From NCBI RefSeq assembly GCF_001077535.1, contig NZ_CP011968.1, positions 1,116,001 to 1,180,000 on the forward strand: DNA of 64,000 bases, given 5' to 3'. This document shows positions 42,084 through 60,645 of this stretch, piece by piece. Made by a program: the position numbers and the translations under genes. Each line of letters opens with the position of its first letter. Position 1 is the first letter of the stretch. This stretch comes from Clostridioides difficile ATCC 9689 = DSM 1296. Lineage in GTDB: Bacteria; Bacillota; Clostridia; Peptostreptococcales; Peptostreptococcaceae. The notes under the pieces were generated by a model. The model made no database searches and was not told the DNA's origin. It worked only from the letters and a program-made list of their open reading frames with translations.

Positions 42084-42262
42084 GAAGATAATTAAATATA
42101 TTCAATATATTTAATTTTTTTATTTTTTGTTTTTATAATTTTTTTAGAAGTTTATTTTTTATGTACTTATTTATAATTTTGGGTAAAAACACTTTGATAT
42201 ATTTTCAAAAGATAAAAGATTAAAAAACAAGGTAGAAATTTATGTTAAGTAAGGAGATTAAT

Positions 42263-44281
42263 ATGAGAAGAAATACAAAATTATTAACAACAGGAATTCT
42301 TTCAATGGCAATCGTCACACCTACAATGGCATTTGCTACTGAATCTAATGCTATGGAAAATAACGCTGATTTAAATATAAACTTAGAGAAAAAAAGTATC
42401 GTTTTAGGTAGTACCTCAAAAGTCAGTGTTAAGTTTAAAGAAAAACCAGATGCAGATAGCATTACATTAAAGTATAAATGCTATGATATGCCATTGGATA
42501 CAACTTTAAATTATAATCAATCAACTGAGTCATATGAAGGAACTATCAATTATAATAAAGACCCAGAATATCTAAATGTTTGGGAACTACAAGGGATAAC
42601 AATAAACAGCAAAAATAATCCTAAAACTTTAAACAAACAAGAACTAGAAAAGATGGGATTAAATTTAAAAGACTATAATGTAACGCAGGAATGTATAATT
42701 GAAGATATAACTTCTAGAAAAGATGTAAATAAATATTTAAGAAAAACTTCTGCACCTATTACAGAACTTACAGGAAGTGATAGATACGAAACAGCAGTTA
42801 AAATAAGTAAAGAAGGCTGGAAAAATGGTTCAGATAAGGTAGTTATAATAAATGGAGATGTAAGTATAGATGGCATTATATCAACTCCACTAGCAACTAC
42901 ATATAATGCGCCAATACTTTTGGTTGAAAAAAACAATGTACCTAATAGTGTAAAATCAGAATTAAAGCGTTTAAATCCTAGAGATGTAATTATAATTGGA
43001 GATGAGAATGCTATTTCTAAAACTACTGCTAATCAAATTAAATCGACTGTAAATGCTAGTCAAACACGTCTAAAGGGCTCTAATAGATATGAGACATCTT
43101 TATTGATAGCAAAGGAAATAGATAAAAATCATGATGTGGAAAAAGTATACATAACAAATGCTAATGGCGGAGAAGTGGATGCACTTACTATAGCAGCAAA
43201 AGCAGGTCAAGACAAGCAACCAATTATATTAACTGATAAAAATAGTATTACAGACAACACATATAAATGGTTAAAGAGTGAGGATTTACAAAATGCTTAT
43301 TTTATAGGTGGTCCTCAAATGATATCAACAAATGTTATAAATAAGGTAAATGATATAACTAAAGATAATGTTACTAATAATAGAGTATATGGAGCAGATA
43401 GACACGAAACAAATGCAAACGTAATAAAAAAATTCTATACAGATGATGAGTTAGAGGCTGTTTTAGTAGCTAAATCAGATGTACTTGTTGATGCTTTAGC
43501 AGCAGGTCCATTGGCTGCCAACTTAAAATCTCCAATACTTATAACACCAAAGACGTATGTATCTGCATACCATAAAGATAATTTAGAAGCTAAATCAGCT
43601 AATAAAGTATATAAAATAGGAGGAGGATTGACTTCTAAGGTAATGAACTCTATAGCATCATCATTATCTAAACACAATACAACTCCAACAGAACCAGGAA
43701 ATAGTGGGGGTAAGACAGTTATGATTGACCCAGGACATGGTGGTTCGGACACTGGAACAACAGGTAAACCATTAGGGGGTATTAAAGAAAAAGACTATAC
43801 ATTAAATACTTCACTTGCGACAACTGAATATTTACGTTCAAAGGGATTCAATGTAATAATGACAAGAGACACAGATAAGACTTTATCTCTTGGAAATAGA
43901 ACTGCTTTATCTAACTCTTTGAGACCAGATTTATTTACGAGTATACACTATAATGCATCTGATACAACTGGGAATGGTGTAGAAGTATTTTATAAGCTTA
44001 AAGATAAAGATGGAGGGACTACTAAAACTGTAGCTACAAATATATTAAATAGAATCTTAGAGAAATTTAATCTAAAAAATAGAGGTGCAAAAACAAGAAC
44101 ACTATCAACTGACCCTACAAAAGATTATTTATATGTTTTAAGAAATAATGATATGCCAGCTGTACTTGTAGAATGTGCATTTTTGGATAATGAGAAAGAT
44201 ATGAGTTTACTTAATACATCAAATAAAGTAAAAGAAATGGGTACACAAATAGGTAAAGGCATAGAAGATTCATTAAAATAG
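42263..44281 (+). CDS. cwp16: Cell-wall protein: three CWB2 repeats plus N-acetylmuramoyl-L-alanine amidase (Cwp16-type)
   Basis: A 672-residue secreted protein. The signal peptide ends at AFA-TES (about residue 25). An N-terminal domain of about 140 residues precedes three CWB2 modules (about 170-470; recurring GSDRYETA, GSNRYETS and GADRHETN motifs). These anchor Cwp proteins to the anionic wall polymer PSII. A Ser/Thr/Pro linker leads to an Amidase_3 domain (about 482-672) with zinc ligands in DPGHGGSD, the Glu of IKEKDYTLN and SIHYNAS, and catalytic Glu in VLVECAFLDN. ATG 42263 follows AAGGAG by 6 bp. It is nearly identical to the next gene. The symbol rests on recognising the Cwp16-Cwp17 pair. 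Confidence 0.9.
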   Translation: MRRNTKLLTTGILSMAIVTPTMAFATESNAMENNADLNINLEKKSIVLGSTSKVSVKFKEKPDADSITLKYKCYDMPLDTTLNYNQSTESYEGTINYNKDPEYLNVWELQGITINSKNNPKTLNKQELEKMGLNLKDYNVTQECIIEDITSRKDVNKYLRKTSAPITELTGSDRYETAVKISKEGWKNGSDKVVIINGDVSIDGIISTPLATTYNAPILLVEKNNVPNSVKSELKRLNPRDVIIIGDENAISKTTANQIKSTVNASQTRLKGSNRYETSLLIAKEIDKNHDVEKVYITNANGGEVDALTIAAKAGQDKQPIILTDKNSITDNTYKWLKSEDLQNAYFIGGPQMISTNVINKVNDITKDNVTNNRVYGADRHETNANVIKKFYTDDELEAVLVAKSDVLVDALAAGPLAANLKSPILITPKTYVSAYHKDNLEAKSANKVYKIGGGLTSKVMNSIASSLSKHNTTPTEPGNSGGKTVMIDPGHGGSDTGTTGKPLGGIKEKDYTLNTSLATTEYLRSKGFNVIMTRDTDKTLSLGNRTALSNSLRPDLFTSIHYNASDTTGNGVEVFYKLKDKDGGTTKTVATNILNRILEKFNLKNRGAKTRTLSTDPTKDYLYVLRNNDMPAVLVECAFLDNEKDMSLLNTSNKVKEMGTQIGKGIEDSLK

Positions 44282-44608: not shown

Positions 44609-44785
44609 ATAGATAATTAAATGTATTAAATATATTTAATTTTTTTATTTTTTGAGTTTTATAAGTTTATTTTTATATATTACTTATATATTATTTATAT
44701 TTTGGGTTAGATACACTTTGACATATTTTCAAAAGTTAAAAGATTAAAAATAAAGTAGAAATTTATGTTAAGTAAGGAGATTAAT

Positions 44786-46798
44786 ATGAGAAGAAATACA
44801 AAATTATTAACAACAGGGATTCTTTCAATGGCAATCGTCGCACCTACAATGGCATTTGCTACTGAATCTAATGCTATGGAAAATAACGCTGATTTAAATA
44901 TAAACTTAGAGAAAAAAAGTATCGTTTTAGGTAGCAAATCAAAAGTTAGTGTCAAATTTAAAGAAAAACCAGATGCAGATAGCATTACATTAAAGTATAA
45001 ATGCTATGACATGCCATTGAATACAACTCTAAATTACAATCAATCAACTGGGGCATATGAAGGAACTATCAATTATAACCAAGACCCAGAATATCTAAAT
45101 GTTTGGGAACTACAAGGGATAACAATAAACAGCAAAAATAATCATAAAACTTTAAACAGACAAGACCTAGAAAAGCTGGGATTAAATTTAAAAGACTATA
45201 ATGTAACACAGGAATGTATAATTGAAGATATAACTTCTAGAAAAGATGTAAATAAATATTTGAGAAAAACTTCTTCACCTATTACAGAACTTACAGGAAG
45301 TGATAGATATGAAACAGCAGTTAAAATAAGTAAAGAGGGCTGGAAAAATGGTTCAGATAAGGTAGTTATAATAAATGGGGATGTAAGTATAGATGGCATT
45401 ATATCAACTCCACTGGCAACCACATATAATGCACCAATACTTTTGGTTGAAAAAAACAATGTACCTAATAGTGTAAAATCAGAATTAAAGCGCCTAAACC
45501 CTAAAGATATAATTATAATTGGAGATGAGAATGCTATTTCTAAAACTACTGCTAATCAAATTAAATCAACTGTAAATGCTAGTCAAACACGTTTAAATGG
45601 TTCTAATAGATATGAGACATCTTTATTGATAGCAAAGGAAATAGATAAAAATCATGATGTGGAAAAAGTATACATAACAAATGCTAATGGCGGAGAAGTG
45701 GATGCACTTACTATAGCAGCAAAAGCAGGTCAAGACAAGCAACCAATTATATTAACTGATAAAGATAGTATTACAGACAATACATATAAATGGTTAAAGA
45801 GTGAGGATTTACAAAATGCTTATTTTATAGGTGGTCCTCAAATGATATCAACAAATGTTATAAATAAGGTAAATGGAATAACTAAAGATAGTGTTACTAA
45901 TAATAGAGTATACGGAGCAGATAGACACGAAACAAATGCAAACGTAATAAAAAAATTCTATACAGATGATGAGTTAGAGGCTGTTTTAGTAGCTAAATCA
46001 GATGTACTTGTTGATGCTTTAGCAGCAGGTCCATTGGCTGCGAACTTAAAATCTCCAATACTTATAACACCAAAGACGTATGTATCTGCATACCATAAAG
46101 ATAATTTAGAAGCTAAATCAGCTAATAAGGTATACAAAATAGGAGGAGGATTGACTTCTAAGGTAATGAGCTCTATAGCATCATCATTATCTAAACACAA
46201 TACGACTCCAACAGAACCAGGAAATAGTGGGGGCAAGACAGTTATGATTGACCCAGGGCATGGTGGTTCAGCACCTGGAAATTCATCTGGAGGAATGATT
46301 GAAAAAGATTACAATTTAAATACTTCACTTGCAACAACTGAATATTTACGTTCAAAGGGATTCAATGTAATAATGACAAGAGACACAGATAAGACTTTAT
46401 CTCTTGGAAATAGAACTGCTCTATCTAATTCATTGAAACCAGATTTATTTACAAGTATACATTATAATGGCTCAACTAATAAACAAGGTCATGGTGTAGA
46501 AGTATTTTATAAGCTTAAAGATAAAAATGGAGGGACTACTAAAACTGTAGCTACCAATATATTAAATAGAATTTTAGAGAAATTTAAACTTACAAATAGA
46601 GGTATAAAAACAAGAGTACTTCCTAGTGATTCTACAAAAGATTATTTATACGTTTTAAGAAGTAATGATATGCCAGCTGTACTTGTAGAATGTGCATTTT
46701 TGGATAATGAAAATGATATGAGTTTAATAAACTCATCTGCAAAAGTAAAAGAAATGGGTACACAAATAGGTAAAGGAATAGAAGATTCATTAAAATAA
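44786..46798 (+). CDS. cwp17: Cell-wall protein: three CWB2 repeats plus N-acetylmuramoyl-L-alanine amidase (Cwp17-type)
   Basis: A 670-residue near-copy of the preceding gene, with the same signal peptide, N-terminal domain, three CWB2 modules and Amidase_3 domain. Differences are few up to about residue 480 and cluster in the amidase. The loop after the first zinc ligand reads GGSAPGNSSGGMIEKDY instead of GGSDTGTTGKPLGGIKEKDY. A stretch near residue 570 reads NGSTNKQGHGVEVF instead of NASDTTGNGVEVF, and the tail has SSAKVKEM. Catalytic residues are kept, so both should be active. ATG 44786 follows AAGGAG. The amidase differences suggest selection or gene conversion limited to the wall-binding part. 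Confidence 0.9.
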   Translation: MRRNTKLLTTGILSMAIVAPTMAFATESNAMENNADLNINLEKKSIVLGSKSKVSVKFKEKPDADSITLKYKCYDMPLNTTLNYNQSTGAYEGTINYNQDPEYLNVWELQGITINSKNNHKTLNRQDLEKLGLNLKDYNVTQECIIEDITSRKDVNKYLRKTSSPITELTGSDRYETAVKISKEGWKNGSDKVVIINGDVSIDGIISTPLATTYNAPILLVEKNNVPNSVKSELKRLNPKDIIIIGDENAISKTTANQIKSTVNASQTRLNGSNRYETSLLIAKEIDKNHDVEKVYITNANGGEVDALTIAAKAGQDKQPIILTDKDSITDNTYKWLKSEDLQNAYFIGGPQMISTNVINKVNGITKDSVTNNRVYGADRHETNANVIKKFYTDDELEAVLVAKSDVLVDALAAGPLAANLKSPILITPKTYVSAYHKDNLEAKSANKVYKIGGGLTSKVMSSIASSLSKHNTTPTEPGNSGGKTVMIDPGHGGSAPGNSSGGMIEKDYNLNTSLATTEYLRSKGFNVIMTRDTDKTLSLGNRTALSNSLKPDLFTSIHYNGSTNKQGHGVEVFYKLKDKNGGTTKTVATNILNRILEKFKLTNRGIKTRVLPSDSTKDYLYVLRSNDMPAVLVECAFLDNENDMSLINSSAKVKEMGTQIGKGIEDSLK

Positions 46799-46890
46799 AT
46801 GGAAATAAAAATATTTAAAAACTTAATGTAAATTTATAGTTGTAAATTTATACTAAAGTCAAAAAATGAAATATAAGTGTATCAATAGTA

Positions 46891-46943
46891 AGACTGTATG
46901 TACATTTGCACATGTGAATGCAAGTATATATACAGTCTTTTTT
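46891..46943 (+). terminator. Terminator after second cwp copy
   Basis: AGACTGTATGTAC (46891-46903) pairs with GTATATATACAGTCT, followed by a long T-run. It shares the AGACTGTAT...TACAGTCT arms of the first copy's terminator. Confidence 0.88.
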
Positions 46944-46990
46944 TGTAGTTAAATGCAATAATTTGATTGTGTTTTGTAAAATACACAATA

Positions 46991-47039: not shown

Positions 47040-48953
47040 ATGGAATATTTATTTGAAAAAAGTAGTTTAAAAGAATATGGAAATGAAGCTTTAGATAAAT
47101 ATAGAGAATTATTAGATAAAACTGGTAATAATTCAAGGTGTATTCTTTTGTTAGTACCAAACAATAACACAAAGATACGATATGAAAGGGCTCTAAGATT
47201 AAATTATAGTGAAGAACTGAAAATAACAACATATATAAGTTTTGTGAAGAAAGAATTAGTTAAATACTGGCCACTAATAATAGAAAAATGTGATGAAATA
47301 AGTACAAAGGTTGTATCTCCAACATTTATATCAAATAGTTTAAGTGAATATTTAATAGTGCAAAAAGTTAAGGAAAAAAGGATACAAGAAGGATATTTTG
47401 GAGATATTACAGGAACCAATAAATCCATAGCAAATAGTATAATGACTAACATAAATAAGTCTGCATTTAATTTAATTGATTTTGATTTTATTGGAGAAAA
47501 AATATATTCATCAAAGAAAAATAAAGATAGTATATATAGATTTTCATACACTCAAATGGATGAAATTATATCATATTATATAAATTCCTTACTATCAAAT
47601 TCAATTTTAGATAATGCATTAAGCATATATTTATACAATCAATACCTACTTAATGATGATTTTTATTTAAAAAACTTATTTACAGAAGTGAGATATATAA
47701 TTGTGGATAGCCTTGAAAGCTCAAGTAATGCAGAAGTTGATTTTATAACAGAAGCATTGGATAATACATTACAAAGTTATATATATTTTGATTATAGTAG
47801 GGATTATTCTGTATTTAATAATGTGGATATAGACTATATAAATGAGAAAATAATATCAAAAATTAAGCCTAAAGAAGAAAATATTAAAAAGAAGGAGATT
47901 AGAATAGAAGATTTATACTTATTACCTGCAAATATAGAATTAAATCAATCAAGTCAATTATATAATGAAATGTTAGATTTAATAAGTGAAAAAGTTATAT
48001 CTCTTATAGAAGAAGATGTATCTCCAAGAGATATAGCAATTATATCTCCTATAAACAATAGTATATTGGAGCATCAAATTAGAGATTCTTTGATAGAAAA
48101 AAATATAGATGTTTTTAGTACTAAGAAGGATAAAAAAGCTGTGGATTATCCATATGGGAATGCATTGGTAGTGGCTACATGTATATTCTATGGATATTTA
48201 GATTTTATAAAAGATGATGAATACTTAAGCTTTTTAGAAACTCTTTTAGAAATAAATAGGATAAAAGCATTTAAGATTTTTAATGAAACAAGACATTTAA
48301 GTATTGATAATATAGATGAACATAGTCAGTATCGTGATATTTTACAGTATATTGAAGAAAAAAAGAAGAGTGATATAAAAATACATGAATTTTTAACTCA
48401 ATTTTACATAGATAAAATGTTAAATTTAAAAGAAGGTAAAAAGAATGTTGGGTTATGTAAAAAGATAATAGCTGAAAGTGAGTCTTTTAGTGAAAGTTTA
48501 AGTCTACTTGGGATGAAAAAAGAAAAGATATTTATAGAAGCTTTAAAAAGTACAATAAACGATTATTACTCTGTTGTCGATATAGAAGAGTTGAAATCCA
48601 AAGACAAAATAGTAATAACTACTCCTTATTCATATATATCATCAAATATAGATAGAAGTATACAAATATGGGTAGATATAGGAAGTAATGCTTGGAATAT
48701 GAAAATAGAAAAAGATATAAGTAATTTAATTGTACTTAGAAAATCTTTTGAAGAAAAAAAGATTTATACAAATGAAATGGAAGAATATTATAAAAAATAT
48801 TATCTATACAATACAGTATATAATTTGTTATTAAATGCAAAGAAAATCTATGCATTTAAAAGTGAATATGCGATTAATGGTTATATCCAAGAGAGTATAT
48901 TGTATAGTATACTTTTAAAAATCTCACATAAAGGAGATAAAAATTATGATTAA
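47040..48953 (+). CDS. Motor-dead AddB/UvrD-like protein, first gene of a split AddAB-like set
   Basis: A 637-residue cytoplasmic protein that aligns by pattern with the helicase-fold part of AddB but has lost its ATPase motifs. The early strand ILLLVPNNNTKIRYERAL parallels IILLVPEQYTFEAENRV of the AddB encoded downstream, but no Walker A precedes it. The Walker B-like spot reads YIIVDSLESSS. The domain-2 segment DVSPRDIAIISPINNSILEHQI parallels VRYRDITIATRDLNRYDFLVHSI. The motif VI region lacks its arginine finger (LLLNAKKIYAF). A structural or DNA-scanning subunit is likely. GAGGAAGGTG precedes ATG 47040. It overlaps the helicase gene by 8 bp. Confidence 0.7.
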   Translation: MEYLFEKSSLKEYGNEALDKYRELLDKTGNNSRCILLLVPNNNTKIRYERALRLNYSEELKITTYISFVKKELVKYWPLIIEKCDEISTKVVSPTFISNSLSEYLIVQKVKEKRIQEGYFGDITGTNKSIANSIMTNINKSAFNLIDFDFIGEKIYSSKKNKDSIYRFSYTQMDEIISYYINSLLSNSILDNALSIYLYNQYLLNDDFYLKNLFTEVRYIIVDSLESSSNAEVDFITEALDNTLQSYIYFDYSRDYSVFNNVDIDYINEKIISKIKPKEENIKKKEIRIEDLYLLPANIELNQSSQLYNEMLDLISEKVISLIEEDVSPRDIAIISPINNSILEHQIRDSLIEKNIDVFSTKKDKKAVDYPYGNALVVATCIFYGYLDFIKDDEYLSFLETLLEINRIKAFKIFNETRHLSIDNIDEHSQYRDILQYIEEKKKSDIKIHEFLTQFYIDKMLNLKEGKKNVGLCKKIIAESESFSESLSLLGMKKEKIFIEALKSTINDYYSVVDIEELKSKDKIVITTPYSYISSNIDRSIQIWVDIGSNAWNMKIEKDISNLIVLRKSFEEKKIYTNEMEEYYKKYYLYNTVYNLLLNAKKIYAFKSEYAINGYIQESILYSILLKISHKGDKNYD

Positions 48954-51165
48954 TATAAATTATAGAGAAGACCAGATACCAATAATAAATTACGATAATG
49001 GTACTATGGCAGTACCAGCAGTACCAGGTGCTGGAAAAACATTTATAATAACAAATTTAGTAGCTAAACTATTACTTGAACAGAAACATAAGGGTGGTAA
49101 AATATTAATTCTTACATATATGAATAGTGCTGTAAATAATTTTAAAGGTAGAATAAGAAAGATTCTTGAAGAGAATAAAATAGATGATACTAATTCGTAT
49201 GAAGTAATGACTATACACAGTTTGGCTGTAAAAATAATAAAGGAAAAGCCAGAAGTTGTAATGTTAAGTGAGGATTTTAATATAGCTGATGATTTGCAAA
49301 AAAGTATTATATTAAATGAATGTATAAGTAGATTTAGATTTGAAGGTGGAGAAAGAGCTTTTAGATGGTTTTTAAAGGAGCAAAAAGATGAACGCTGGAA
49401 AGAAATAACTCTTGAAGCCTGGGAAAGAGGTTTTTTTGAATTTGCAGGAAATGCAATAAGTGAACTTAAGTATAAGGGAATTTCTCCAGATAAACTTGAA
49501 GAAATATTGTCAAGAGGACACAAAGGAATGCTTAAAATTATTTTACCAATATATAAATTGTATGATAGAAAATTAAAGCAAAATGGATTGCTAGATTATG
49601 ATGATATATTAATTTTAGCAGAAAAAACTTTAAGCTTAGACGAAGGGCTTAGAAAGAAGTTTCAAACTAGATACAAATATATATTTGAAGATGAGTGTCA
49701 GGACTCAAATGAAATTCAAGGTAATATAATAAAAATTATATCTAGCGAAAATAAAAACCTAGTTAGAGTTGGAGATATAAATCAGAGTATAACAGGAACA
49801 TTTTCATCATCAGACCCTAAATTTTTTAAAGAATTTATAAATAGTGCAGATTTCTGTTATAGGATGGATATGTCAAATCGAAGTTCAAAAGATATACTTG
49901 ATTTAGCAAACACTCTTGTCAAGTATGTTACAAAGGAATTTAGACAGAAAGAATGTAGACATGCTCTTGAAGATATGCAAATAAAAACTGTGCCAAATGG
50001 AATGGGATATAAAGAAAATCCTAATCCAGAACATTATAATATAAATGTAAAGTGGTATGAGAGTTGGAAAATTGAAATAGAGCAAACTGCTAGATACGTT
50101 AAGGGTATAAAAAATAAATATCCAGATAAAAGTATAGGTATATTGGTTCCATTTAATGAACAAGTGACACAAGTTGCTAAAGAACTTAGAGAGAATAATC
50201 TAACCTTTGAAGAATTAGGACCAAATTCTTTGAATAAAAGGAAGGTTATAAACAATATAGCATATATTATTGATTTTATGTTACATTGTGATGATGTAGA
50301 AAAGTTAATAGTTGTACTTAATAAAGTTTTTATAGATACTGATAATGAAGAAGAAATAAAGTATTTTTTAGAAGAATTAAAAAACTATTCTACCGAAGAA
50401 ATTATTTATAATTTTGAATTTAGTAAGTTAGATAATGATTTAATAGAATTTAAAGAAGAAAGTGATATATACTTAAGTTTTAAAAGAGGAATAGATATTA
50501 TAAAACAGATATTAGAATATCCAATAATAAGGTTAGACCTCTTAGTTTTGTTTATTGGGAAAAAACTTAATTTAGAAAAAGAAGATAAAGCTGTACTGGA
50601 TTATATATCTTTTTATATAAAGTATCTAGTATCAGAAAATATAAATATGGATTTAGAAGATGTATATAATTTATTGTTTGATGTAAAGAACAGGGTGTTT
50701 AATCATATAATAGATGTGGTATATGAGATAAATGGATATGAACCAGAGCCCGGTAGTATAACACTATGTAACTATCATAAATCAAAGGGGATGGAATGGG
50801 ATTGTGTGTTTTTACTAGGTCTTGTTGAATATAATTTCCCTGACAATATTAATCAAAAGTTTCAGAGTGATAAATGGTATCTAAAAGAAAAATATAAAAA
50901 CCCTATGGCAATTATTAAATCAGAAGTTGAAGCTATATTAAAAGGAAGTATTTCAACAGATTATGCTCATAAAACGAAGATTGATTCTATAAATGAAAAG
51001 ATTAGACTTTTATATGTAGGGATTACTAGAGCAAAGGAAATGTTAGTACTTTCAGGAAGTGCTTATAGAGATGAAAGTGATATAGGGAATAAGAGAAAAG
51101 AGCAAAAACCATGTATATATTTAAGCAGACTTAATCAACATATTATTGAAAAAAGGTCAAATTAA
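48946..51165 (+). CDS. UvrD/PcrA-like superfamily 1A DNA helicase without nuclease domain
   Basis: A 739-residue helicase with all SF1A motifs: Q motif (REDQIPII, Q10), Walker A PGAGKTF (K31), motif Ia NSAVNNFKGRI, motif II YIFEDECQDSNE, motif III VRVGDINQSITGTF, motif IV RMDMSNRSS, motif V CNYHKSKGMEWDCVFLLG and motif VI LLYVGITRAKEML. It should translocate 3' to 5' on DNA. It ends after motif VI with no nuclease, unlike AddA. ATG 48946 has AAAGGAGA inside the end of the previous gene, so the two are coupled. A partner nuclease is encoded next. A free-standing Rep/PcrA role is the alternative. Confidence 0.88.
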   Translation: MININYREDQIPIINYDNGTMAVPAVPGAGKTFIITNLVAKLLLEQKHKGGKILILTYMNSAVNNFKGRIRKILEENKIDDTNSYEVMTIHSLAVKIIKEKPEVVMLSEDFNIADDLQKSIILNECISRFRFEGGERAFRWFLKEQKDERWKEITLEAWERGFFEFAGNAISELKYKGISPDKLEEILSRGHKGMLKIILPIYKLYDRKLKQNGLLDYDDILILAEKTLSLDEGLRKKFQTRYKYIFEDECQDSNEIQGNIIKIISSENKNLVRVGDINQSITGTFSSSDPKFFKEFINSADFCYRMDMSNRSSKDILDLANTLVKYVTKEFRQKECRHALEDMQIKTVPNGMGYKENPNPEHYNINVKWYESWKIEIEQTARYVKGIKNKYPDKSIGILVPFNEQVTQVAKELRENNLTFEELGPNSLNKRKVINNIAYIIDFMLHCDDVEKLIVVLNKVFIDTDNEEEIKYFLEELKNYSTEEIIYNFEFSKLDNDLIEFKEESDIYLSFKRGIDIIKQILEYPIIRLDLLVLFIGKKLNLEKEDKAVLDYISFYIKYLVSENINMDLEDVYNLLFDVKNRVFNHIIDVVYEINGYEPEPGSITLCNYHKSKGMEWDCVFLLGLVEYNFPDNINQKFQSDKWYLKEKYKNPMAIIKSEVEAILKGSISTDYAHKTKIDSINEKIRLLYVGITRAKEMLVLSGSAYRDESDIGNKRKEQKPCIYLSRLNQHIIEKRSN

Positions 51166-51273
51166 TATATAATAAGTTATTAAAAGATTGCTTGAAATAT
51201 ATCTAAAAGGGGATAAAACAATATGTACAGTAAGTAACTACTAAAAAATAAAGTTAAGAGAGAAGTGATATGA

Positions 51274-52104
51274 GTGAACGATAAATTAAAATATTTTTCT
51301 TATAGTCAAAATTCAATTAACACATATAAATCATGTCCATTGAAATTTAAATATAAATATATTGATAGAATAAATTGGAAAAATGATGATGTTGGTAGTA
51401 GAGAGTATTATGAAACTTTAAAAACAGGAAGAGATTTTCATTTGATTTGTGAAAGATATTTTAGCAATATACCTCTTGGAATCTATTTTAATGAGGATGA
51501 TAAAAATAGTAAAAAGTTTTTAAAGTGGATGGAAAATATAAAAAAAGTTGTTCCTATTGAAAAAGGAAAAACGTATTTGCCAGAATATGAAGTAAGGATG
51601 ACATTAAATGGGGATATAATACAGGCAAAGTATGATTTAGTTGTAATTGGAAATAACAATATAGAAATATGGGATTGGAAAACCGAGTCTAAAAAGATTG
51701 ACTATAAACACGTAGAAAATAGAATACAAACTATTGTTTATATGTTTTTAGCAAAAGAAGTAATACCTAAAGTTTTAAAAATGGACATAAATGTTAAAGA
51801 TATAAATATGAGATATTATCAACCTGAATTTGATGACTTACCAATTACCATTTTATATGATGAAGAAAAACATGAAGCAAATAGAAATAAAATTCAAAAT
51901 TATATAAGTATGATAAAAAACACTAATTATGAAGAACATACATACGAAGACAATCTATACAATGATATAGAAAAGGTATATAATAAAGAAGAACGTATGT
52001 GCTATAGAAATAAAAAGCATTGCAAGTATTGTGAATTTAATAAGTTATGTAATGGCAAAGAAATAGATTATAGTATTTTGGAGGCGGAAATTTATGGGAC
52101 TTAG
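51274..52104 (+). CDS. Stand-alone Fe-S PD-(D/E)XK nuclease (RecB/Cas4-like)
   Basis: A 276-residue nuclease matching the C-terminal domain of AddB as a separate chain. An N-terminal SYSQNSINTYKSCPLKFKY motif holds C21. The catalytic core shows Asp in KYDLVV, D-W-K in IEIWDWKTE and QTIVY (motif QxxxY). The C-terminal cysteines C250, C253 and C259 (C-x2-C-x5-C) complete a 4Fe-4S site with the same spacing as C1115, C1118 and C1124 of the AddB next door. The start is GTG 51274 behind AGAGAAGTGAT. It lies 108 bp after the helicase and overlaps addB by 11 bp, coupling the two sets. Confidence 0.83.
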   Translation: MNDKLKYFSYSQNSINTYKSCPLKFKYKYIDRINWKNDDVGSREYYETLKTGRDFHLICERYFSNIPLGIYFNEDDKNSKKFLKWMENIKKVVPIEKGKTYLPEYEVRMTLNGDIIQAKYDLVVIGNNNIEIWDWKTESKKIDYKHVENRIQTIVYMFLAKEVIPKVLKMDINVKDINMRYYQPEFDDLPITILYDEEKHEANRNKIQNYISMIKNTNYEEHTYEDNLYNDIEKVYNKEERMCYRNKKHCKYCEFNKLCNGKEIDYSILEAEIYGT

Positions 52105-55100
52105 GTTTGTATTAGGTAGAAGTGGAAGTGGAAAATCCACCTATATACTAGATGAAATTAAAAAAGAAGCTCAAAAAAATGAAACGACATCAATTATACT
52201 TTTAGTTCCAGAACAGTACACATTTGAGGCTGAAAATAGAGTAAGTAAGCTATTCTTAGGAAAAGAAAAAGATAAGTATCTAAGAGTTAGGGTACTTAGC
52301 TTTAAGACACTAAGTAATATAGTTTTTTCTCAAGTAGGAGGATTGACAGATGTAAATATAAATTCTAGTGGAAAAGCAATGATGGTATATAGAGCTATTG
52401 AAGATGTAAGTGAAGAATTAAATGTGTTTTCAAAATCAAAATCGCAGTCTGGTTTTGTAAGTTCAATTACAGATATGATATCAGAAATGAAACAATACAA
52501 TATAAGCCCTGAAATGTTAGAAAATATATCTGGAGAATTGGATAATGAAACTTTAAGTTTAAAATTAAAAGATATAAGTAAAATATATAATTCTTTTGAA
52601 GGGAAATTGCATGAAAATTATGTAGATGCTCAAGATATGTTAACTTCATTGGCAAGTAAAATTGAATTAAGCAGTTATTTAGATGGAGCTTGTGTTTATA
52701 TAGATGAATTTACAGGTTTTACACCAAATCAGTACAATGTCATAAAGAGTATATTAAATAAGTCTAAAAGTGTTAATATCTCTTTGACTGTAGATGATAT
52801 CAACTATATTGGGTACAGTAAATCTGATATGTTTTCTAGAACGAAATTTACTTATTCAAAATTGACTCAATTGTGCAACGAAGAAGGCATAAAAATATTG
52901 CCACAAGTAAATTTAAACACAGGTGTTATAAAAAGATTTGAAAAAGTTAAGGAATTACAGCACTTAGAAAGATTTTATAATGCTTATCCATATAAAATAT
53001 ATTCAAATCCAACTGAAAATATAAAGATAAAAGAGTTTAACAATTTATATTCAGAGGTGGAAGAGATAGCCAGAGAAATTGTACATTTAGTTAGAGATAA
53101 GAATGTCAGATATAGAGATATAACCATTGCTACAAGAGATTTAAATAGATATGATTTTTTAGTACACTCTATATTTAATGAATATAATATACCAAACTTT
53201 ATAGATAAGAAGAGAGAGGCAAAAAGTAATCCAATAGTTATTTTAATTATTTCAACTTTAGAAATGAAGAATAGACGATATGGGTATGAAACTATGTTTA
53301 GGTATTTAAAAAGTGGACTTATAGGAATTGATAATGATGATATAAATTTACTAGAAAATTATGTGTTGGCTAATGGGATTAAAGGTAAAAAATGGTTTGA
53401 TGAAAAATGGGATTATAGAATAACTCAAAGTCTTTCAGGTCAAGAAAGTGAATTTGAACTGGAATTAAAAGAGAAAATAAATGAAATAAAAAATAGAGTA
53501 TTAGAGCCTATAGTAATTTTACAAGAAAAATTAAGAGGAAAAAATAGAGTAAAAGAAATCTGTAGATATATATATGAATTTTTATTAGATATAAATATGC
53601 CAGAAACTATAGAAAGTTTAATAGTAAATTTTAAGGATAAAGGGGAACTTGATGTTGCAAATCAATACTCACAAGTTTGGGACATAGTAGTGGACATATT
53701 AGACCAAATGGTGGAACTTATGGGTGATGAAATAATTTCTTTAGAAAAATTTATAAAATTAATAACCTTAGGTTTTGATGAATATGAATTAGGACTGGTT
53801 CCTCCTAGTATAGACCAGGTACTTGTAAGTAGTGTGGATAGAATGAAAAATCCAGACACGAAATATTTATACCTAGTTGGAACTACTGATGGTGTGTTTC
53901 CGCTGATTACAAAGGATAGTGGAATATTGAGTGATAATGATAGGGAAAGTCTTGGAAACAAAGGAATCGAAGTTGATATTGATAGTAAGACTAGGAGTTT
54001 TGAAGAACAGTTTCTTGTATATAAAGCTCTTACTTCGACATCTAAGAATTTAACCATAACATATCCAATATCAGACCATGAAGGTAAAACGCTTAGACCA
54101 TCAATAATTATATCAAGACTTAAGAAGATATTTCCAAATATAGAAAATAAAAGTTATTTAGTGGAAGAAAATAAAAGCACTGATAAAGATATACTTAAAA
54201 AAATAACGGTTAAATCCCCTACATTTAATGAACTTATAAACATAATAAAAAATTATGACAGTGATGGTTACAATACAGAAGAGATTAATAGTATTTGGTT
54301 AGATATATATAGGTACTATTTAAAAGATGAAGTCTATAGTTCTATAACAAAAAAAGTTATAAAAGGTCTTAGTTATACTAATCAAGTTCATAAGATTGAA
54401 GAGAAAAAAATAAGGTCATTGTATAAAAGTAATTCTCTTAGCATATCTAGGCTTGAAAAATATGCTGAATGTCCATTTGCTTATTTTATACAATATGGTC
54501 TAAAAGCAAAAAAGCGTAAAGAGTATTCATTTACACCACCAGATTTAGGAACTTTTATTCATAATATTTTAGATAGGTTTTCAAAAGAACTTTTACAAGA
54601 TAATTTAACTTGGAGAGATATTGATGAAAAATATATAGAATTAAAGATAGGTATAATAGTTGATGAAATAATTTTAAAGATACCAGGATATATATTAAAT
54701 AGTTCTGAGAGGTATAAATACCTTGCATATAGATTAAAGAATATGTTGACAACTGCTATAACTATAATTAGTCAGCAAATAAAACAAGGTTCATTTGAAC
54801 CAATAGATTATGAAGTTAAATTTGGCAACAATGGAAAATATCCACCTATAAAAATGGTGTTAGAAAATGGACAAGAAGTAAGTTTAATTGGACAAATAGA
54901 TAGAGTTGATGAATTTGAAGAAGGAGAAAATAAATATATAAGAATAATAGATTATAAGTCAGGCAATAAGTCCATAAGTCTAACAGAAATATATTATGGT
55001 CTACAATTACAATTACTTGTGTATTTAGATGCAATCCTTGAAAGTGCAAAGGATGAAGATATAAATATAAATCCAGCTGCAATACTATATTGTAGAATAA

Positions 55101-55561
55101 ATAATCCAATAGCAAAATTTAATGAAGATAAAGATGATGAAGAAATACAAGAAGCAATATTAAAAGAACTTAGAATGAAGGGGCTTGTAGTAAAAGACTC
55201 TCACATAGTTAAAGAGATGGATAAATCATTAATAGATGGAGAAAGGAAAAACTCTTTAGTAATACCAGTAGGTCTTACTAAGGATGGAAATGTAGGTAAA
55301 AGTACTTCAGCAATAAGCTATGAGGATTTCAAACTGCTTAGAAAATATGTAAGGCATGCTATAAAGGATTTATGTGAAGAAATGTTAAGTGGAGAAATAC
55401 GTATAGCTCCATATAAACATAAAGATGGAACATCATGTGACTTTTGTGATTACTCTGCTATATGTCAGTTTGATTCAACTATAAAAGATAACAAGTATAA
55501 AAATTTAAATAATAAGAGTAATGAAGAGATAATAAAAATGATGAAAGGAGATGTTAATTAG
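52094..55561 (+). CDS. addB: ATP-dependent helicase/nuclease subunit B
   Basis: A 1155-residue subunit of the AddAB enzyme, which resects double-strand breaks up to Chi and prepares 3' ends for RecA. The N-terminal Walker A is GRSGSGKST (K14). The central helicase-like region lacks a full motor set, as usual for AddB. The C-terminal nuclease has GQIDRVDEF and IIDYKSG, and a 4Fe-4S staple from C793 (YAECPFAYF), C1115, C1118 and C1124. Length is normal. ATG 52094 has GGAGGCGG inside the preceding nuclease gene. Its stop shares a base with the addA start. Confidence 0.96.
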   Translation: MGLRFVLGRSGSGKSTYILDEIKKEAQKNETTSIILLVPEQYTFEAENRVSKLFLGKEKDKYLRVRVLSFKTLSNIVFSQVGGLTDVNINSSGKAMMVYRAIEDVSEELNVFSKSKSQSGFVSSITDMISEMKQYNISPEMLENISGELDNETLSLKLKDISKIYNSFEGKLHENYVDAQDMLTSLASKIELSSYLDGACVYIDEFTGFTPNQYNVIKSILNKSKSVNISLTVDDINYIGYSKSDMFSRTKFTYSKLTQLCNEEGIKILPQVNLNTGVIKRFEKVKELQHLERFYNAYPYKIYSNPTENIKIKEFNNLYSEVEEIAREIVHLVRDKNVRYRDITIATRDLNRYDFLVHSIFNEYNIPNFIDKKREAKSNPIVILIISTLEMKNRRYGYETMFRYLKSGLIGIDNDDINLLENYVLANGIKGKKWFDEKWDYRITQSLSGQESEFELELKEKINEIKNRVLEPIVILQEKLRGKNRVKEICRYIYEFLLDINMPETIESLIVNFKDKGELDVANQYSQVWDIVVDILDQMVELMGDEIISLEKFIKLITLGFDEYELGLVPPSIDQVLVSSVDRMKNPDTKYLYLVGTTDGVFPLITKDSGILSDNDRESLGNKGIEVDIDSKTRSFEEQFLVYKALTSTSKNLTITYPISDHEGKTLRPSIIISRLKKIFPNIENKSYLVEENKSTDKDILKKITVKSPTFNELINIIKNYDSDGYNTEEINSIWLDIYRYYLKDEVYSSITKKVIKGLSYTNQVHKIEEKKIRSLYKSNSLSISRLEKYAECPFAYFIQYGLKAKKRKEYSFTPPDLGTFIHNILDRFSKELLQDNLTWRDIDEKYIELKIGIIVDEIILKIPGYILNSSERYKYLAYRLKNMLTTAITIISQQIKQGSFEPIDYEVKFGNNGKYPPIKMVLENGQEVSLIGQIDRVDEFEEGENKYIRIIDYKSGNKSISLTEIYYGLQLQLLVYLDAILESAKDEDININPAAILYCRINNPIAKFNEDKDDEEIQEAILKELRMKGLVVKDSHIVKEMDKSLIDGERKNSLVIPVGLTKDGNVGKSTSAISYEDFKLLRKYVRHAIKDLCEEMLSGEIRIAPYKHKDGTSCDFCDYSAICQFDSTIKDNKYKNLNNKSNEEIIKMMKGDVN

Positions 55562-58500
55562 TGAGTTCTCCTAAATGGACAAAAGAGCAATTAGAAGTTA
55601 TAGAAAGTAGAGAATGCAATTTATTGGTTGCTGCTGCTGCTGGTTCAGGAAAAACAGCCGTGCTAGTTGAGCGTATAATTCAAATGATAACAAGTAGAGA
55701 AAATCCAATTGATATAGATAAGTTATTAGTTGTTACATTTACTAATGCTGCTGCGTCAGAAATGAGAGAGAGGATAGGGGATGCTATAGGAAAAGCCTTA
55801 GATGAAAACCCAGAAAATAAACATTTACAAAACCAACTTGTTTTATTAAATAAATCTAGTATTACAACAATACACTCATTCTGTTTGGATGTTATAAAAT
55901 CAAACTTTCATAGAATAAACTTAGACCCTAATTTCAGAATAGGAGACCAAACTGAATGTGCTATTTTGAAACAAGAAGCAATAGAGGAAGTATTTGAAGA
56001 TTTATATGAAGAAAGAGATGAGGGGTTTTTAAATTTAGTTGAAAGTTATGCAGAAAGAGGAGGAGATAAAGAAGTACAAGATATTATCTTGGGAATATAT
56101 TCATTTGCAATGGCTTCTCCTGAACCTAAAAAATGGTTGATTGACTCAGCAGAACGATTTAATATTGATGAAAATTTTGATTTTTCACAGTCTATTTGGG
56201 CTAGAGCTATATTAGACACTGTAAAAATAGAGATTAATGGTCTTTGTCTAAATATGGAAAGGGCATTAAAAGAAGTGGAATCAATAGAAGAATTAGAAAC
56301 TTTTGCAGAAAAGTTATCTGTTGAATATAAAAAAATTGCTGACATTTCACAAGCATGTAATAAATCTTGGGATGAGGCATATAAAAAGATGGCAAGTATG
56401 TCCTTTGAAAATTATGTAAAAGGAGTAAAAAGAATTTCAAAAGATGCTCCTTCGTATATAAAAGAATCAAAAGAAAAGGCAAAAACTATAAGAGATAAGA
56501 CTAAGAAGTCTTTAGAAAGTATAGTAAGTGCTACATTCAATAAAGATAATGATTCTATTAGAGAAGAAATAAAATATCTTTATAACATAGTTAAACCAAT
56601 ATCTAGTGTTGTACTGAGATTTGAAGAGGAATATAGCAATAAGAAAAGAGAAAAAGGAATAATAGATTTTAACGATATAGAGCATTTTGCATTAAATATA
56701 CTTACAGATGTAGATGAAAAAGGTAATATTGTACCTTCTGATATAGCAGTTGGATATAGAAACAAGTTTTATGAAATATTTATAGATGAATATCAGGATA
56801 GTAATCTAGTGCAGGAAGTACTGCTTAAAGCTGTTGCAAATACAGAAACTCCAAATAGATTTATGGTTGGTGATGTAAAACAGAGTATATATAGATTTAG
56901 ACAAGCAAAGCCAGAATTATTTTTGCAAAAATATAATAACTATAATGATAAAAAGGGAAGTTCCCATAGAAAAATAATGCTTTACAAAAATTTTAGAAGT
57001 AGAGAAGAAGTTGTAGATGCTGTAAATTATATATTTGAAAATATAATGAATGAGAATATAGGAGAAATTGAATATACAGAAAAAGAAAGACTAAATTTAG
57101 GTGCAAATTTTAATGTGGATACAGACGAGAAATCTATTATTGGTGGAGCAACGGAGATACACCTAATACAAAAAGATAATAAACTTGATGATGATATTAT
57201 AAATGATAAAGACGATAGAATTAATAACAAAGAAGATGAAATAGAGGAAGAAGAAAAATTAGATAATATACAACTTGAGGCTAGAATGGTTGGAAACATC
57301 ATCAAAGATTTAATGAAAGTCAATGAAGATGGAAAAATTCAAAAGGTCTATGATAAGGGAATAGATGGATATAGACCTGTGGAATTTAGAGATATAGTTA
57401 TTCTTTTAAGAGCTACATCTGCATGGGCTCCAGTGTTTGCAGATGAATTGATGAATATGGATATACCAACATATGCTGATGTTGGAGTGGGGTATTTTGA
57501 TACGATTGAAATAAAAACAATATTGTCATTACTTCAAATAATAGATAATCCAATGCAAGATATACCTCTTATATCTGTATTAAAATCACCTATATTTGGA
57601 TTTACACCAGAGGATTTGATTGATATTAGAGTTCAGAGTAAAGATAAAATTTTTTATGAGGTTTTAAAAAGTACAGCAGAGTATGATGGATTTACAGATT
57701 CTCAAAATGAAAATGAGTCTGAGTTTATACCAAGTGAAGAGTGCATAAACAAAAGTAAAGATTTTTTAATTAAGCTAAAGGAATTTAAAGAAAAGTCAAT
57801 GTACATGAGTACAGATGAATTTATATGGTACTTGTACACAAGGACTGGATACTATGCCTATGTTGGAGCATTGCCAGGTGGAAGTCAAAGACAAGCTAAT
57901 TTAAAAGTATTGTTTGAGAGAGCAAAACAATTTGAAGAAACCAGTCTTAAAGGAATATTCAACTTTGTAAATTTTATAGAGAAATTAAAAAAATCTAGTT
58001 CTGATATGGGAAGTGCAAAAACACTTGGTGAGAATGCAAATGTTGTTAGAATAATGAGTATTCATAAAAGTAAAGGTCTAGAATTTCCAGTAGTCATATG
58101 CTCTGCAATGGGTAAAAATTTCAATACTCAAGATTTTAAAAAGAGTATTTTATATCATCATAATTTAGGGTATGGACCTCAATTTGTAGACTATGAGAGA
58201 AGGATTTCTTTTCCAAGTATAGCCAAAGAAGCATTAAAAAGCAAAATAAATATAGAAAATTTATCAGAAGAGATGAGAGTTTTATATGTTGCATTTACAA
58301 GAGCTAAAGAAAAATTGATTATAACTGGTTCTACTAGAAATATACAAGATAGTATAAAGAGATGGTCAAATGGAATTGAAAGTTTAGATACAATATCACA
58401 ATACGAGATATTAAAAGGTAAAAATTTTTTAGATTGGATAATGCCTTGTGTATTAAGACATAGGGATTTATCTAATCTACTAGAAGAAGTAGGATTAGAC

Positions 58501-59388
58501 GCAGTTTTTAATGTTGAACATAATTCAAAATGGTATGGAAAGTTGTGGAATAAGAATGATATTTTAGTGGAAAAGAAGAGTGATGAAGAAAAAGAAAGTA
58601 TTGAAGAAATTCTTGAAAAAATAGATGTAGATAATCCTGACAGTGATTATTACAGTGAAATAGAAGAAAAATTAAACTATATATATCCATATGAATTTAG
58701 TACAAGAAAACCTGCTACTATATCTGTTACAGAAATAAAAAAGATACAAAATAATTATGAAGAAGAGTTAATAAATACTATATTTGAACAAAAAGTAATA
58801 TTAAAAAAGCCTCTATTTATTCAAAATGAAGAAGAAAGAGAAAAAATAAGTGGAACAGAAAGAGGTACAATAGTCCATTTAGTTATGGAGGTTTTAGACT
58901 TAAAAAATGTAAGTAGTGTAAATGATATAAAATCACAAATAAGAGGTTTTGTTTCAAAAGGTATAATAACAGAAAAACAAGCTAGTATAGTAAATCCATA
59001 TAAAATATATAAATTTTTTGCCTCTAACATAGGAAAAAGAATGTTGAATGCTGAAATTATAAATAGAGAAAAATCAATTTATGCACAAGTAAATATGAAA
59101 GACATATATATTTATGAAAAGCTTATAAACAATGACGATAAAAAACTTTATGATAATGAAAGTGTCATGTTAAGAGGTATAGTTGATGCTTATTTTGAAG
59201 AAGATAATCAAATAGTTTTGGTGGATTATAAAACAGATTTTGTAAATGAGGAAAATATAAATCAAATAATAGAGAAATATAAAAAACAGTTGGATTTATA
59301 TGCAGATATTATTGAAACTTTAACTGGTAAGTCAGTAAAAGAGAAATGTATATATTTATTTGGAGTTGATGAAGCTGTTTGTTATTAG
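55561..59388 (+). CDS. addA: ATP-dependent helicase/nuclease subunit A
   Basis: A 1275-residue motor and nuclease subunit of AddAB. SF1A motifs are AAAGSGKTAVLVERI (about 26-40), DFNDIEHFAL, FIDEYQDSN (motif II), VGDVKQSIYRFRQA (III), IMSIHKSKGLEFPVV (V) and VLYVAFTRAKEKL (VI). The C-terminal RecB-type nuclease has GIVDAYFEED and VLVDYKTDF. An acidic low-complexity insertion (DDDIINDKDD, then EEEEKLD) lies near residue 540-565. The start is GTG 55561, whose first base is the last base of the addB stop, behind AAAGGAG. It forms a complex with AddB. Confidence 0.96.
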   Translation: MSSPKWTKEQLEVIESRECNLLVAAAAGSGKTAVLVERIIQMITSRENPIDIDKLLVVTFTNAAASEMRERIGDAIGKALDENPENKHLQNQLVLLNKSSITTIHSFCLDVIKSNFHRINLDPNFRIGDQTECAILKQEAIEEVFEDLYEERDEGFLNLVESYAERGGDKEVQDIILGIYSFAMASPEPKKWLIDSAERFNIDENFDFSQSIWARAILDTVKIEINGLCLNMERALKEVESIEELETFAEKLSVEYKKIADISQACNKSWDEAYKKMASMSFENYVKGVKRISKDAPSYIKESKEKAKTIRDKTKKSLESIVSATFNKDNDSIREEIKYLYNIVKPISSVVLRFEEEYSNKKREKGIIDFNDIEHFALNILTDVDEKGNIVPSDIAVGYRNKFYEIFIDEYQDSNLVQEVLLKAVANTETPNRFMVGDVKQSIYRFRQAKPELFLQKYNNYNDKKGSSHRKIMLYKNFRSREEVVDAVNYIFENIMNENIGEIEYTEKERLNLGANFNVDTDEKSIIGGATEIHLIQKDNKLDDDIINDKDDRINNKEDEIEEEEKLDNIQLEARMVGNIIKDLMKVNEDGKIQKVYDKGIDGYRPVEFRDIVILLRATSAWAPVFADELMNMDIPTYADVGVGYFDTIEIKTILSLLQIIDNPMQDIPLISVLKSPIFGFTPEDLIDIRVQSKDKIFYEVLKSTAEYDGFTDSQNENESEFIPSEECINKSKDFLIKLKEFKEKSMYMSTDEFIWYLYTRTGYYAYVGALPGGSQRQANLKVLFERAKQFEETSLKGIFNFVNFIEKLKKSSSDMGSAKTLGENANVVRIMSIHKSKGLEFPVVICSAMGKNFNTQDFKKSILYHHNLGYGPQFVDYERRISFPSIAKEALKSKINIENLSEEMRVLYVAFTRAKEKLIITGSTRNIQDSIKRWSNGIESLDTISQYEILKGKNFLDWIMPCVLRHRDLSNLLEEVGLDAVFNVEHNSKWYGKLWNKNDILVEKKSDEEKESIEEILEKIDVDNPDSDYYSEIEEKLNYIYPYEFSTRKPATISVTEIKKIQNNYEEELINTIFEQKVILKKPLFIQNEEEREKISGTERGTIVHLVMEVLDLKNVSSVNDIKSQIRGFVSKGIITEKQASIVNPYKIYKFFASNIGKRMLNAEIINREKSIYAQVNMKDIYIYEKLINNDDKKLYDNESVMLRGIVDAYFEEDNQIVLVDYKTDFVNEENINQIIEKYKKQLDLYADIIETLTGKSVKEKCIYLFGVDEAVCY

Positions 59389-59433: not shown

Positions 59434-60645
59434 ATGAGATTTATTCATACATCAGATTGGCATCTAGGGAAGTCCCTAGAAGGCCATTCTAGAATTGAGG
59501 AACAAGCAAAGTTTTGTGAGGAATTTATAAAAATAGTAGAATCAAATGAAATAGATATGGTTATAATTGCTGGAGATGTATATGATACTTCTAATCCACC
59601 AGCACAAGCAGAAAAACTATTTTATCAGACTGTATCAAGACTTGCCAATAATGGTCAGAGGTGTGTATTAATAATTTCAGGAAATCATGATAATCCAGAG
59701 AGACTCTCTGCAATAACACCTCTAGCACATGAACAGGGGATACTTATATATGGTTATCCATTAAGTGCTACGATAGAAGCTAAGTATAAAGGGTTTGAAA
59801 TAACATATGCAACTCAGGGATGTACAAAACTGAATATAAATGGAGAAAATATTGTGGTTGCTACATTACCTTATCCAAGTGAAAAAAGATTAAATGAAGT
59901 TTTTTCAAGTGAAGATGAGTTTGAGAAACAAAAAAATTATTCTGAAAAGGTAGGAGATATATTTAGAAGTTTAGAAGAAAATTTTAGAAGTGATACTATA
60001 AATATAGCCGTATCACATATATTTGTAATAGGTGGAGAGAGTACTGAATCAGAAAGACCTATACAATTAGGTGGAAGTTTTTTAGTTGAAAGAAAAGATT
60101 TGCCAGAAAAGGCTCAATATACTGCACTAGGTCATTTACATAAACAACAAAAAGCTTCCGAACGTTTAAATGCGTACTATTCTGGTTCTCCACTTCAATA
60201 TAGCAAGGATGAAAGAGCGTATACCAAAGGGGCATACATAGTGGATATAAAAGCTGGTGAAAAACCAATAATTGAAGATGTATATTTTAATAATTACAAA
60301 CCTATAGAAGTATTTAAATGTAATGGAATAGAAGAAGCACTAGATATATGTGAGCAAAATCAAGATAGAGAGATTTGGTCATATTTTGAAATAAATACTG
60401 ATGAGATAATATCACAGAATGAAATTAAAAAAATGAAGGAACTATTAAAAGACATAATAGAAATAAAACCAATAATAACATCTTGTTATGAACAAGAAAG
60501 TGTAGATATAAAAGAAAAGTCTATGGCAGAGTTGTTTAGAGAGTTCTATTCTTTTAGTAAAGGTGTAGAGCCAAAAGGAGAACTTATGGATTTATTTCTA
60601 GATATAATAAGTGAAGAAGGTGAATCAGCAGATGAGACCAATTAG
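59434..60645 (+). CDS. sbcD: Exonuclease SbcD (Mre11-like)
   Basis: A 403-residue nuclease subunit of SbcCD, which opens hairpins and protein-blocked DNA ends. Calcineurin-type phosphoesterase motifs are in order: HTSDWHLGKS (about 5-14), AGDVYDTSNP (about 47-56), ISGNHDNPERL (about 84-94), AVSHIFVIGG and ALGHLHKQQ. These supply the two-manganese site. A C-terminal capping domain follows. AGGAAGGGG precedes ATG 59434. It ends overlapping sbcC by 14 bp, so the subunits are co-translated. It lies 45 bp after addA, extending the repair operon. Confidence 0.95.
   Translation: MRFIHTSDWHLGKSLEGHSRIEEQAKFCEEFIKIVESNEIDMVIIAGDVYDTSNPPAQAEKLFYQTVSRLANNGQRCVLIISGNHDNPERLSAITPLAHEQGILIYGYPLSATIEAKYKGFEITYATQGCTKLNINGENIVVATLPYPSEKRLNEVFSSEDEFEKQKNYSEKVGDIFRSLEENFRSDTINIAVSHIFVIGGESTESERPIQLGGSFLVERKDLPEKAQYTALGHLHKQQKASERLNAYYSGSPLQYSKDERAYTKGAYIVDIKAGEKPIIEDVYFNNYKPIEVFKCNGIEEALDICEQNQDREIWSYFEINTDEIISQNEIKKMKELLKDIIEIKPIITSCYEQESVDIKEKSMAELFREFYSFSKGVEPKGELMDLFLDIISEEGESADETN

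Follow-up and report, generated by a model that had tools for sequence, protein, structure and literature searches.

Resection of double-strand breaks in bacteria is usually credited to one of three enzymes, RecBCD, AddAB or AdnAB. The inactivated superfamily 1 (SF1) helicase domains of AddB and RecC are proposed to be the parts that recognise Chi in single strands, and a 3' overhang remains once the AddB nuclease has degraded the 5'-terminated strand (PMC4824097). Here we analysed a stretch of 64,000 nucleotides (hereafter, the window) from the 4.15 Mb genome of Clostridioides difficile ATCC 9689 = DSM 1296 (NZ_CP011968.1, positions 1,116,001 to 1,180,000), in which three genes (gene 1, gene 2 and gene 3; hereafter, the trio) are followed on the same strand by addB, addA, an sbcD-like and an sbcC-like gene (Table 1). 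In our preferred interpretation, which we give a probability of about 0.55, the trio would form one DNA-end resection complex with one motor and one nuclease, in which gene 1, by analogy with RecC and AddB, serves as a pseudo-helicase scaffold. An earlier note on this locus, made from the sequence without database searches, had described a split AddAB-like system coupled to the genuine addAB.

Genes 2 and 3 have intact catalytic motifs. Gene 2 has the UvrD N- and C-terminal domains and no nuclease domain (Pfam), and its Walker A, DE and motif VI Arg are kept in 56 of 56 aligned rows, in agreement with the full superfamily 1A (SF1A) helicase without a nuclease that the earlier note had recognised. 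Gene 3 matches PDDEXK_1 (Pfam), and its first Cys, His, Asp, D-x-K and QxxxY are kept in all 56 rows and C-x2-C-x5-C in 55 of 55, the L094 sequence stopping before that motif. Its cysteines (Cys21 plus C250-x2-C253-x5-C259) are spaced exactly as those of the AddB encoded in the window (C793 plus C1115-x2-C1118-x5-C1124), as had been claimed for a lone PD-(D/E)XK nuclease with the AddB iron-sulphur (Fe-S) staple, and by this cysteine pattern gene 3 is a predicted Fe-S nuclease. The nuclease at the C-terminus of AddA has no counterpart in the trio, which therefore does not hold every AddAB part, as first thought.

Gene 1 had no match in Pfam, PADLOC or PHROGs, its matches in NCBIfam (E 0.043 and 0.049) and among PDB sequences (top E 0.22) were at chance level, and it matched neither ADDB_N (PF21445) nor TIGR02773, to which the neighbouring addB scores 312.3 and 1280.7 bits, respectively. 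The predicted structure (predicted local distance difference test score, pLDDT, 85.8; predicted template-modelling score, pTM, 0.84) indicates an SF1A (UvrD/Rep/AddB-like) helicase fold over the full length rather than the unrelated fold that would have refuted the earlier note, and the 637 residues include no nuclease domain (Pfam). In the window the protein lacks Walker A and the motif VI Arg, and its Walker B reads DS instead of DE, so that the initial reading of a catalytically stripped AddB-type helicase fold was sound. Profile comparison aligned gene 1 with gene 2 over 580 columns (hhalign 98.3%, E 1.9e-14), and on these sequence comparisons gene 1 is a diverged sister of gene 2. The window genome has one gene 1, with a second, weak match (8.5e-9) in a 765-aa (amino acid) frame elsewhere. 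Among named homologues, those nearest to genes 1 and 3 come from C. difficile and Clostridioides sp.

The distribution of the trio was profiled in 60 Peptostreptococcaceae genomes from 23 genera (hereafter, the family) and in 398 genomes of the phylum. Within the family, gene 1 was detected in 50 genomes (19 genera) and ADDB_N above its cut-off in 52. Both gene 1 and addB occur in 42 genomes, in 41 of which they lie 2.8–4.3 kb apart on one strand, and in the exception (G032) they are on different contigs. Eight genomes (G006, G027, G015, G035, G047, G056, G022 and G038) have gene 1 without a real AddB, the weak AddB match of G006 falling in its gene 2. Across the phylum the gene 1 profile matched 53 genomes at E ≤ 0.001 and 28 at E < 1e-15 (the window genome and 27 others), and a separate run with the gene 3 profile gave 29 genomes at E ≤ 1e-10, namely the identical 28 at E < 1e-50 plus G214 (1.6e-12). 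Gene 2 sits between the two profiled genes. The other 25 genomes matched by gene 1 (E 2e-7 to 9e-4) were set aside, as nearly all of these matches fall at model positions 149–348 in longer frames and are probably other SF1 helicases.

Genes 2 and 3 are adjacent in all 25 loci fetched from the 27 phylum genomes. Gene 1 is split into frames at one locus (L100) and, at another (L099), is absent from the picked open reading frames, yet was placed there by the profile search. Long gene 2 frames at these two loci were considered as trio gene fusions, which would have pointed to contact, and rejected, as the gene 1 matches have other frame lengths than gene 2, and among 50 listed proteins (longest 763 aa) none has the length that a trio fusion requires. 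The trio is thus a conserved unit and not a set of genes scattered among related genomes, which the earlier note had named as a refuting outcome. Distances in the trees of the three genes agree, which indicates co-inheritance and not contact, and the inheritance looks vertical. Named holders, from a partial list obtained by scanning with two short peptide patterns, are Halanaerobium, Natroniella, Fuchsiella, Halonatronum, Halanaerobacter, Halothermothrix, Desulfotomaculum-type bacteria, Bacillota metagenome-assembled genomes (MAGs) and one Chloroflexi MAG. The last (L125) is the most distant named holder found; its trio has Walker A and is not followed by recJ.

Outside the family, the gene behind gene 3 is usually recJ (36 of the 39 loci with room for it; BLAST). 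This holds for 21 of 23 phylum loci (exceptions L081 and L099; L087 and L094 stop at the contig end) and for 15 of 16 further named loci (exception L125; L111 and L112 stop early), seven other named loci being copies of phylum loci. All six tested proteins encoded at this position have DHH, DHHA1 and RecJ_OB domains. The spacing between gene 3 and recJ is 304–686 bp in several Halanaerobium-type loci and 751 bp in L100, where recJ is in two frames. The neighbouring RecJ is a second RecJ in 17 of 20 tested RecJ-linked genomes, and G243, G167 and G268 have this one alone. Within the family, recJ was found behind the trio in none of 14 loci examined, and ten tested genomes have one RecJ each. The RecJ paralogue behind gene 3 (in loci within L079–L128), found in Halanaerobiales, Desulfotomaculum-type bacteria and other Clostridia, looks like an unstudied resection gene in its own right.

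The motifs of gene 1 differ in how far they are kept. Walker B DE is kept in one of 55 aligned gene 1 proteins (L089; the rest have DD, DN, DS or DA) and motif VI TRA(K/R) in none of them. Walker A (GxxxxGK[ST]) is lost in all 20 examined rows adjoining addAB (8 called by script, 12 read from the alignment by eye) and kept in 46 of the 47 that do not adjoin it, L094 having Arg in place of Lys; the 47 cover the family genomes without AddB apart from G035 and G047, thus six of eight. In a 67-row gene 1 tree (L045 omitted as short), which has no fixed root and some long branches, one branch (100/100) divides the Walker A states, and the state changes once in 200 of 200 bootstrap trees. Judged from these alignments, gene 1 may have decayed in two steps, Walker B and motif VI first and then Walker A. 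The ratios of nonsynonymous to synonymous substitution rates (dN/dS) of the Walker-less gene 1 against three congeners are 0.115, 0.143 and 0.157 (0.075–0.093 for a 501-codon part of gene 2), from which we conclude that gene 1 is under purifying selection. The lineage series from Walker A kept to Walker A lost would be a natural case of a helicase becoming a scaffold.

In the mechanism that we propose, gene 2, given its motifs, would load onto the broken end and unwind it, and gene 1, its catalytic residues gone, would hold and guide one separated strand and possibly read a signal in it, comparable to Chi for AddB and RecC. The 5'-ended strand would be cut by gene 3, whose active site and Fe-S cysteines are patterned as in the AddB nuclease, leaving the 3' single strand needed by RecA. 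Where the module has what we presume to be its older form, a dedicated RecJ (a 5'-3' single-strand exonuclease) would assist and complete resection, a task that nearby AddAB and SbcCD may take over in Clostridioides. In Peptostreptococcaceae the module has no RecJ of its own and is mostly linked to addAB-sbcDC, and the ATP-binding loop of gene 1 is gone in the linked clade. A bolder version, to which we give somewhat less than even odds, is that the trio represents a fourth kind of break-processing enzyme besides RecBCD, AddAB and AdnAB, made of three chains with a strand-reading pseudo-helicase, first accompanied by its own RecJ and later coupled to AddAB with loss of the ATP loop, and giving cells that lack AddAB a second way to resect ends and to remain SOS-competent.

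Several observations weigh against a resection complex of this kind. Profile matches to AddB are weak for both gene 1 (39.9%, E 3e-4, and 1.1% with the narrower alignment A2) and gene 3 (24.3%, E 8e-4), and the polarity assigned to gene 3 is by analogy. When gene 2 and gene 3 from the Halanaerobium locus L102 were modelled together (40 single-gene rows, the TAA between the genes read through; 1007 residues), the model had a pLDDT of 90.0 and a pTM of 0.73, and aligned to AddA and AddB over 819 and 822 residues at root-mean-square deviations of 26.8 and 23.0. These alignments span helicase and nuclease and both parts are well folded, and the pTM fixes neither their relative placement nor an interface between them, the remaining point on which the earlier note could have been refuted. 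In addition, ten family genomes have addB without a detected gene 1, so the trio is dispensable there; one of them (G014) has a weak match, of a kind that is gene 2-like elsewhere, at a contig end just before addB, and its trio was probably cut off. The absence of recJ behind the trio extends to six fetched family loci without addAB. The link to RecJ would be explained just as well if the module served to repair gaps or forks.

The same caution comes from the 35 trio genomes without adjacent addAB, 20 of which also have AddA or a long AddA/RecB-like frame. AddA was matched at E ≤ 1e-40 in 11 (two above the cut-off), and among the other 24 a strongly matching UvrD-domain frame of at least 900 aa occurs in 9; the 1097-aa frame of G438, which is gene 2, and weak long-frame matches in G035, G149 and G411 were not counted. 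The remaining 15 have no AddA-type frame and include all eight family genomes without AddB; four of the 15 are less than 90% complete. The scarcity of full AddB matches outside the family had suggested the trio as a general AddAB replacement, an idea rejected because of these 20 genomes. Many lineages carry the module alongside AddAB-type enzymes, for which it is at most in part a substitute. Separately, six trio genomes that are Halanaerobiales by tree position (G140, G422, G286, G236, G334 and G401) have UvrD-domain frames of 1034–1082 aa that the AddA model missed at E 1e-40, perhaps divergent AddA/RecB.

The alternative that survives best, though we consider it unlikely, is a Dna2/Bad-like or RecQ-RecJ-like helicase-nuclease acting on single-strand gaps, flaps or stalled forks and not on double-strand ends. 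Gap repair usually employs RecJ as its nuclease, and the RecJ paralogue beside the trio outside the family and the frequent coexistence with AddA-type frames both suit such a role. One motor with one Fe-S nuclease also resembles the bacterial DNA2-like enzyme Bad, which, in the available text, moves 5'-3' (PMC7430649), whereas 3'-5' polarity is expected of the UvrD-type gene 2. A pseudo-helicase is, moreover, typical of end-resection complexes, as in RecC and AddB, and the linkage with addAB in 41 of 42 family genomes argues in the same direction.

That linkage, with gene overlap in some genomes, could instead mean that the trio serves AddAB as an accessory in the addAB-linked clade, binding or regulating it, for example in end hand-over or stop-signal modification, and gene 1 lacks Walker A in exactly the linked rows, as if ATP binding were needless there. 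We regard this as improbable, since genes 2 and 3 retain all their catalytic residues in the linked clade and the unit occurs elsewhere without adjacent addAB, as well as in eight family genomes that have no real AddB. An anti-phage system of Gabija-like or Cas4-like type, the other role that the earlier note had floated, is very improbable: gene 2 has GajB models as its best PADLOC match (1.8e-53), gene 3 weakly matches Aga_Cas4-like_Nuc (1.7e-6), UvrD-Cas4 fusions occur in defence contexts (PMC5704561, available part) and one of 14 tested neighbours is Mrr-type (L097), but 46 PADLOC families match gene 2, as they would any UvrD-type helicase, the other 13 neighbours are metabolic, signalling, surface or uncharacterised genes, co-inheritance is stable and apparently vertical, and the trio matched no defence system as a whole. 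What stands of the proposed second complex is the end-processing half, a separate set of that type whose genes stay together and which is linked to AddAB in the genome.

If the trio is a resection complex, it would address a puzzle in C. difficile, where an addAB deletion is sensitive to ultraviolet light and metronidazole and is nevertheless SOS-proficient, with near-normal growth (doubling in ~45 versus 40 min), and its authors propose that another exonuclease, perhaps RecJ, makes single strand (PMC6344619). The deletion is 7.25 kb, close to the 7295 bp of addB plus addA in the window, and the trio is thus presumably intact in the mutants; it is a candidate for the activity that keeps them SOS-proficient. 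The available text of that paper does not mention the trio upstream of addAB, and 'upstream', 'operon' and 'UvrD' do not occur in it. In the available text of PMC12548448 addA, addB, recA and sbcC do not occur, and the uncharacterised essential helicase CDR20291_1171 reported there is not gene 2, as it has 593 aa. More generally, a conserved additional helicase-nuclease set beside addAB would alter the reading of repair in Clostridia and Halanaerobiales. No description of the trio was found in the open-access full-text literature, as the earlier note had supposed, with the qualification that a UvrD and Cas4-like pair of Clostridiales was noted in 2017 (PMC5704561, seen in part).

The remaining features of the locus are collected in Table 1. 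The earlier note had coupled the trio to addAB through gene overlaps; both overlaps are exact, but they do not tie all the genes together, because a gap separates gene 2 from gene 3. This gap is 108 bp in the window and -35 to 52 bp in 14 other measured family loci. The promoter-like match at its start is no evidence alone, since the window has 90 such sites and shuffled sequences 101.8. The SOS-box pattern GAACNNNNGTTY has three matches in the window, none near the trio, and 36 of 100 shuffles reach as many. Homologues of the sbcD-like gene adjoin addA in L037, L042, L043 and L046–L048 as well. The terminator-like stem lies between the trio and the amidase gene upstream of it. Two near-identical tandem genes (42242–44281 and 44765–46798) stop ahead of this stem; their translations have a cell-wall-repeat part and an amidase part, and we take them to be Cwp16/Cwp17-like.

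Table 1 Features of the trio locus, in window positions.
Feature	Position	Strand	Description
gene 1	47040-48953	+	637 aa; putative SF1A pseudo-helicase, RecC/AddB-like in kind, without Walker A
gene 2	48946-51165	+	739 aa; SF1A (UvrD/PcrA-like) helicase, motifs complete, without nuclease domain
gene 3	51274-52104	+	276 aa, GTG start; stand-alone PD-(D/E)XK nuclease, four-Cys AddB-type Fe-S pattern
addB	52094-55561	+	TIGR02773, 1280.7 bits
addA	55561-59388	+	TIGR02785, 1252.3 bits
sbcD-like gene	59434-60645	+	named from sequence and position
sbcC-like gene	60611-64000	+	named in this analysis; continues past the window end
gene 1/gene 2 overlap, 8 bp	48946-48953	+	open reading frame coordinates
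gene 3/addB overlap, 11 bp	52094-52104	+	open reading frame coordinates
gene 2-gene 3 gap, 108 bp	51166-51273	+	open reading frame coordinates
promoter-like site, 11/12 consensus match	51146-51173	+	consensus match alone
terminator-like stem, 10 bp, long loop, T run	46890-46944	+	found by eye, absent from scan output

Compared with known systems, the trio shares with Gabija a GajB-like helicase alone; Gabija pairs GajB with GajA (ATPase-TOPRIM), whereas the constant neighbours of gene 2 are a pseudo-helicase and a PD-(D/E)XK nuclease. Cas4 of CRISPR adaptation is likewise distinct, gene 3 scoring 9.3 bits against a cut-off of 65 for TIGR00372 (cas4) and sitting between a helicase gene and addB. 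RecBCD has, like the trio, three subunits with a dead helicase as a separate chain (RecC). In RecBCD, however, the active nuclease belongs to RecB, RecC includes a nuclease domain that is inactive, and RecD is a second motor. No chain of the trio, whose gene 1 has no nuclease domain, appears to fit this division, although RecD was not searched for genome-wide. Solved Anabaena-type nucleases (9iac/9iab), which are among the PDB sequences matched by the gene 3 profile (4.9e-8; AddB is absent among the six matches listed at E ≤ 1), have C-x2-C-x5-C and resemble gene 3, and a cyanobacterial protein annotated 'recombinase family' (P0290) is homologous to gene 1 (E 9.1e-35) and has a GKT loop, so cyanobacteria may hold a related module. 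Bad and DNA2-like enzymes combine a helicase with a four-cysteine Fe-S nuclease, as the trio does, but the available account describes a single enzyme with a 5'-3' motor and no separate pseudo-helicase (PMC7430649). The UvrD and Cas4-like predicted operon, reported in several bacteria, mostly Clostridiales, and perhaps for repair, has a pfam12705 Cas4-like nuclease gene adjoining an unfused UvrD gene and may be the gene 2-gene 3 pair or a relative, although in the available text no pseudo-helicase gene, RecJ or addAB neighbour is named and the figure legend lists other neighbours (PMC5704561). The closest system, AddAB (RexAB, Bacillus subtilis type), is adjacent to the trio in the window and, like it, combines an inactive and an active SF1A helicase with an AddB-type nuclease of equal four-Cys spacing; in AddAB, however, both chains end in PD-(D/E)XK, whereas the trio has three chains and one nuclease. 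'Split AddAB' has to be corrected as a statement of descent, because gene 1 is nearer to gene 2 than to AddB and the module also occurs where AddAB was not found or beside a RecJ paralogue, and our best reading is that the trio is not a member of AddAB.

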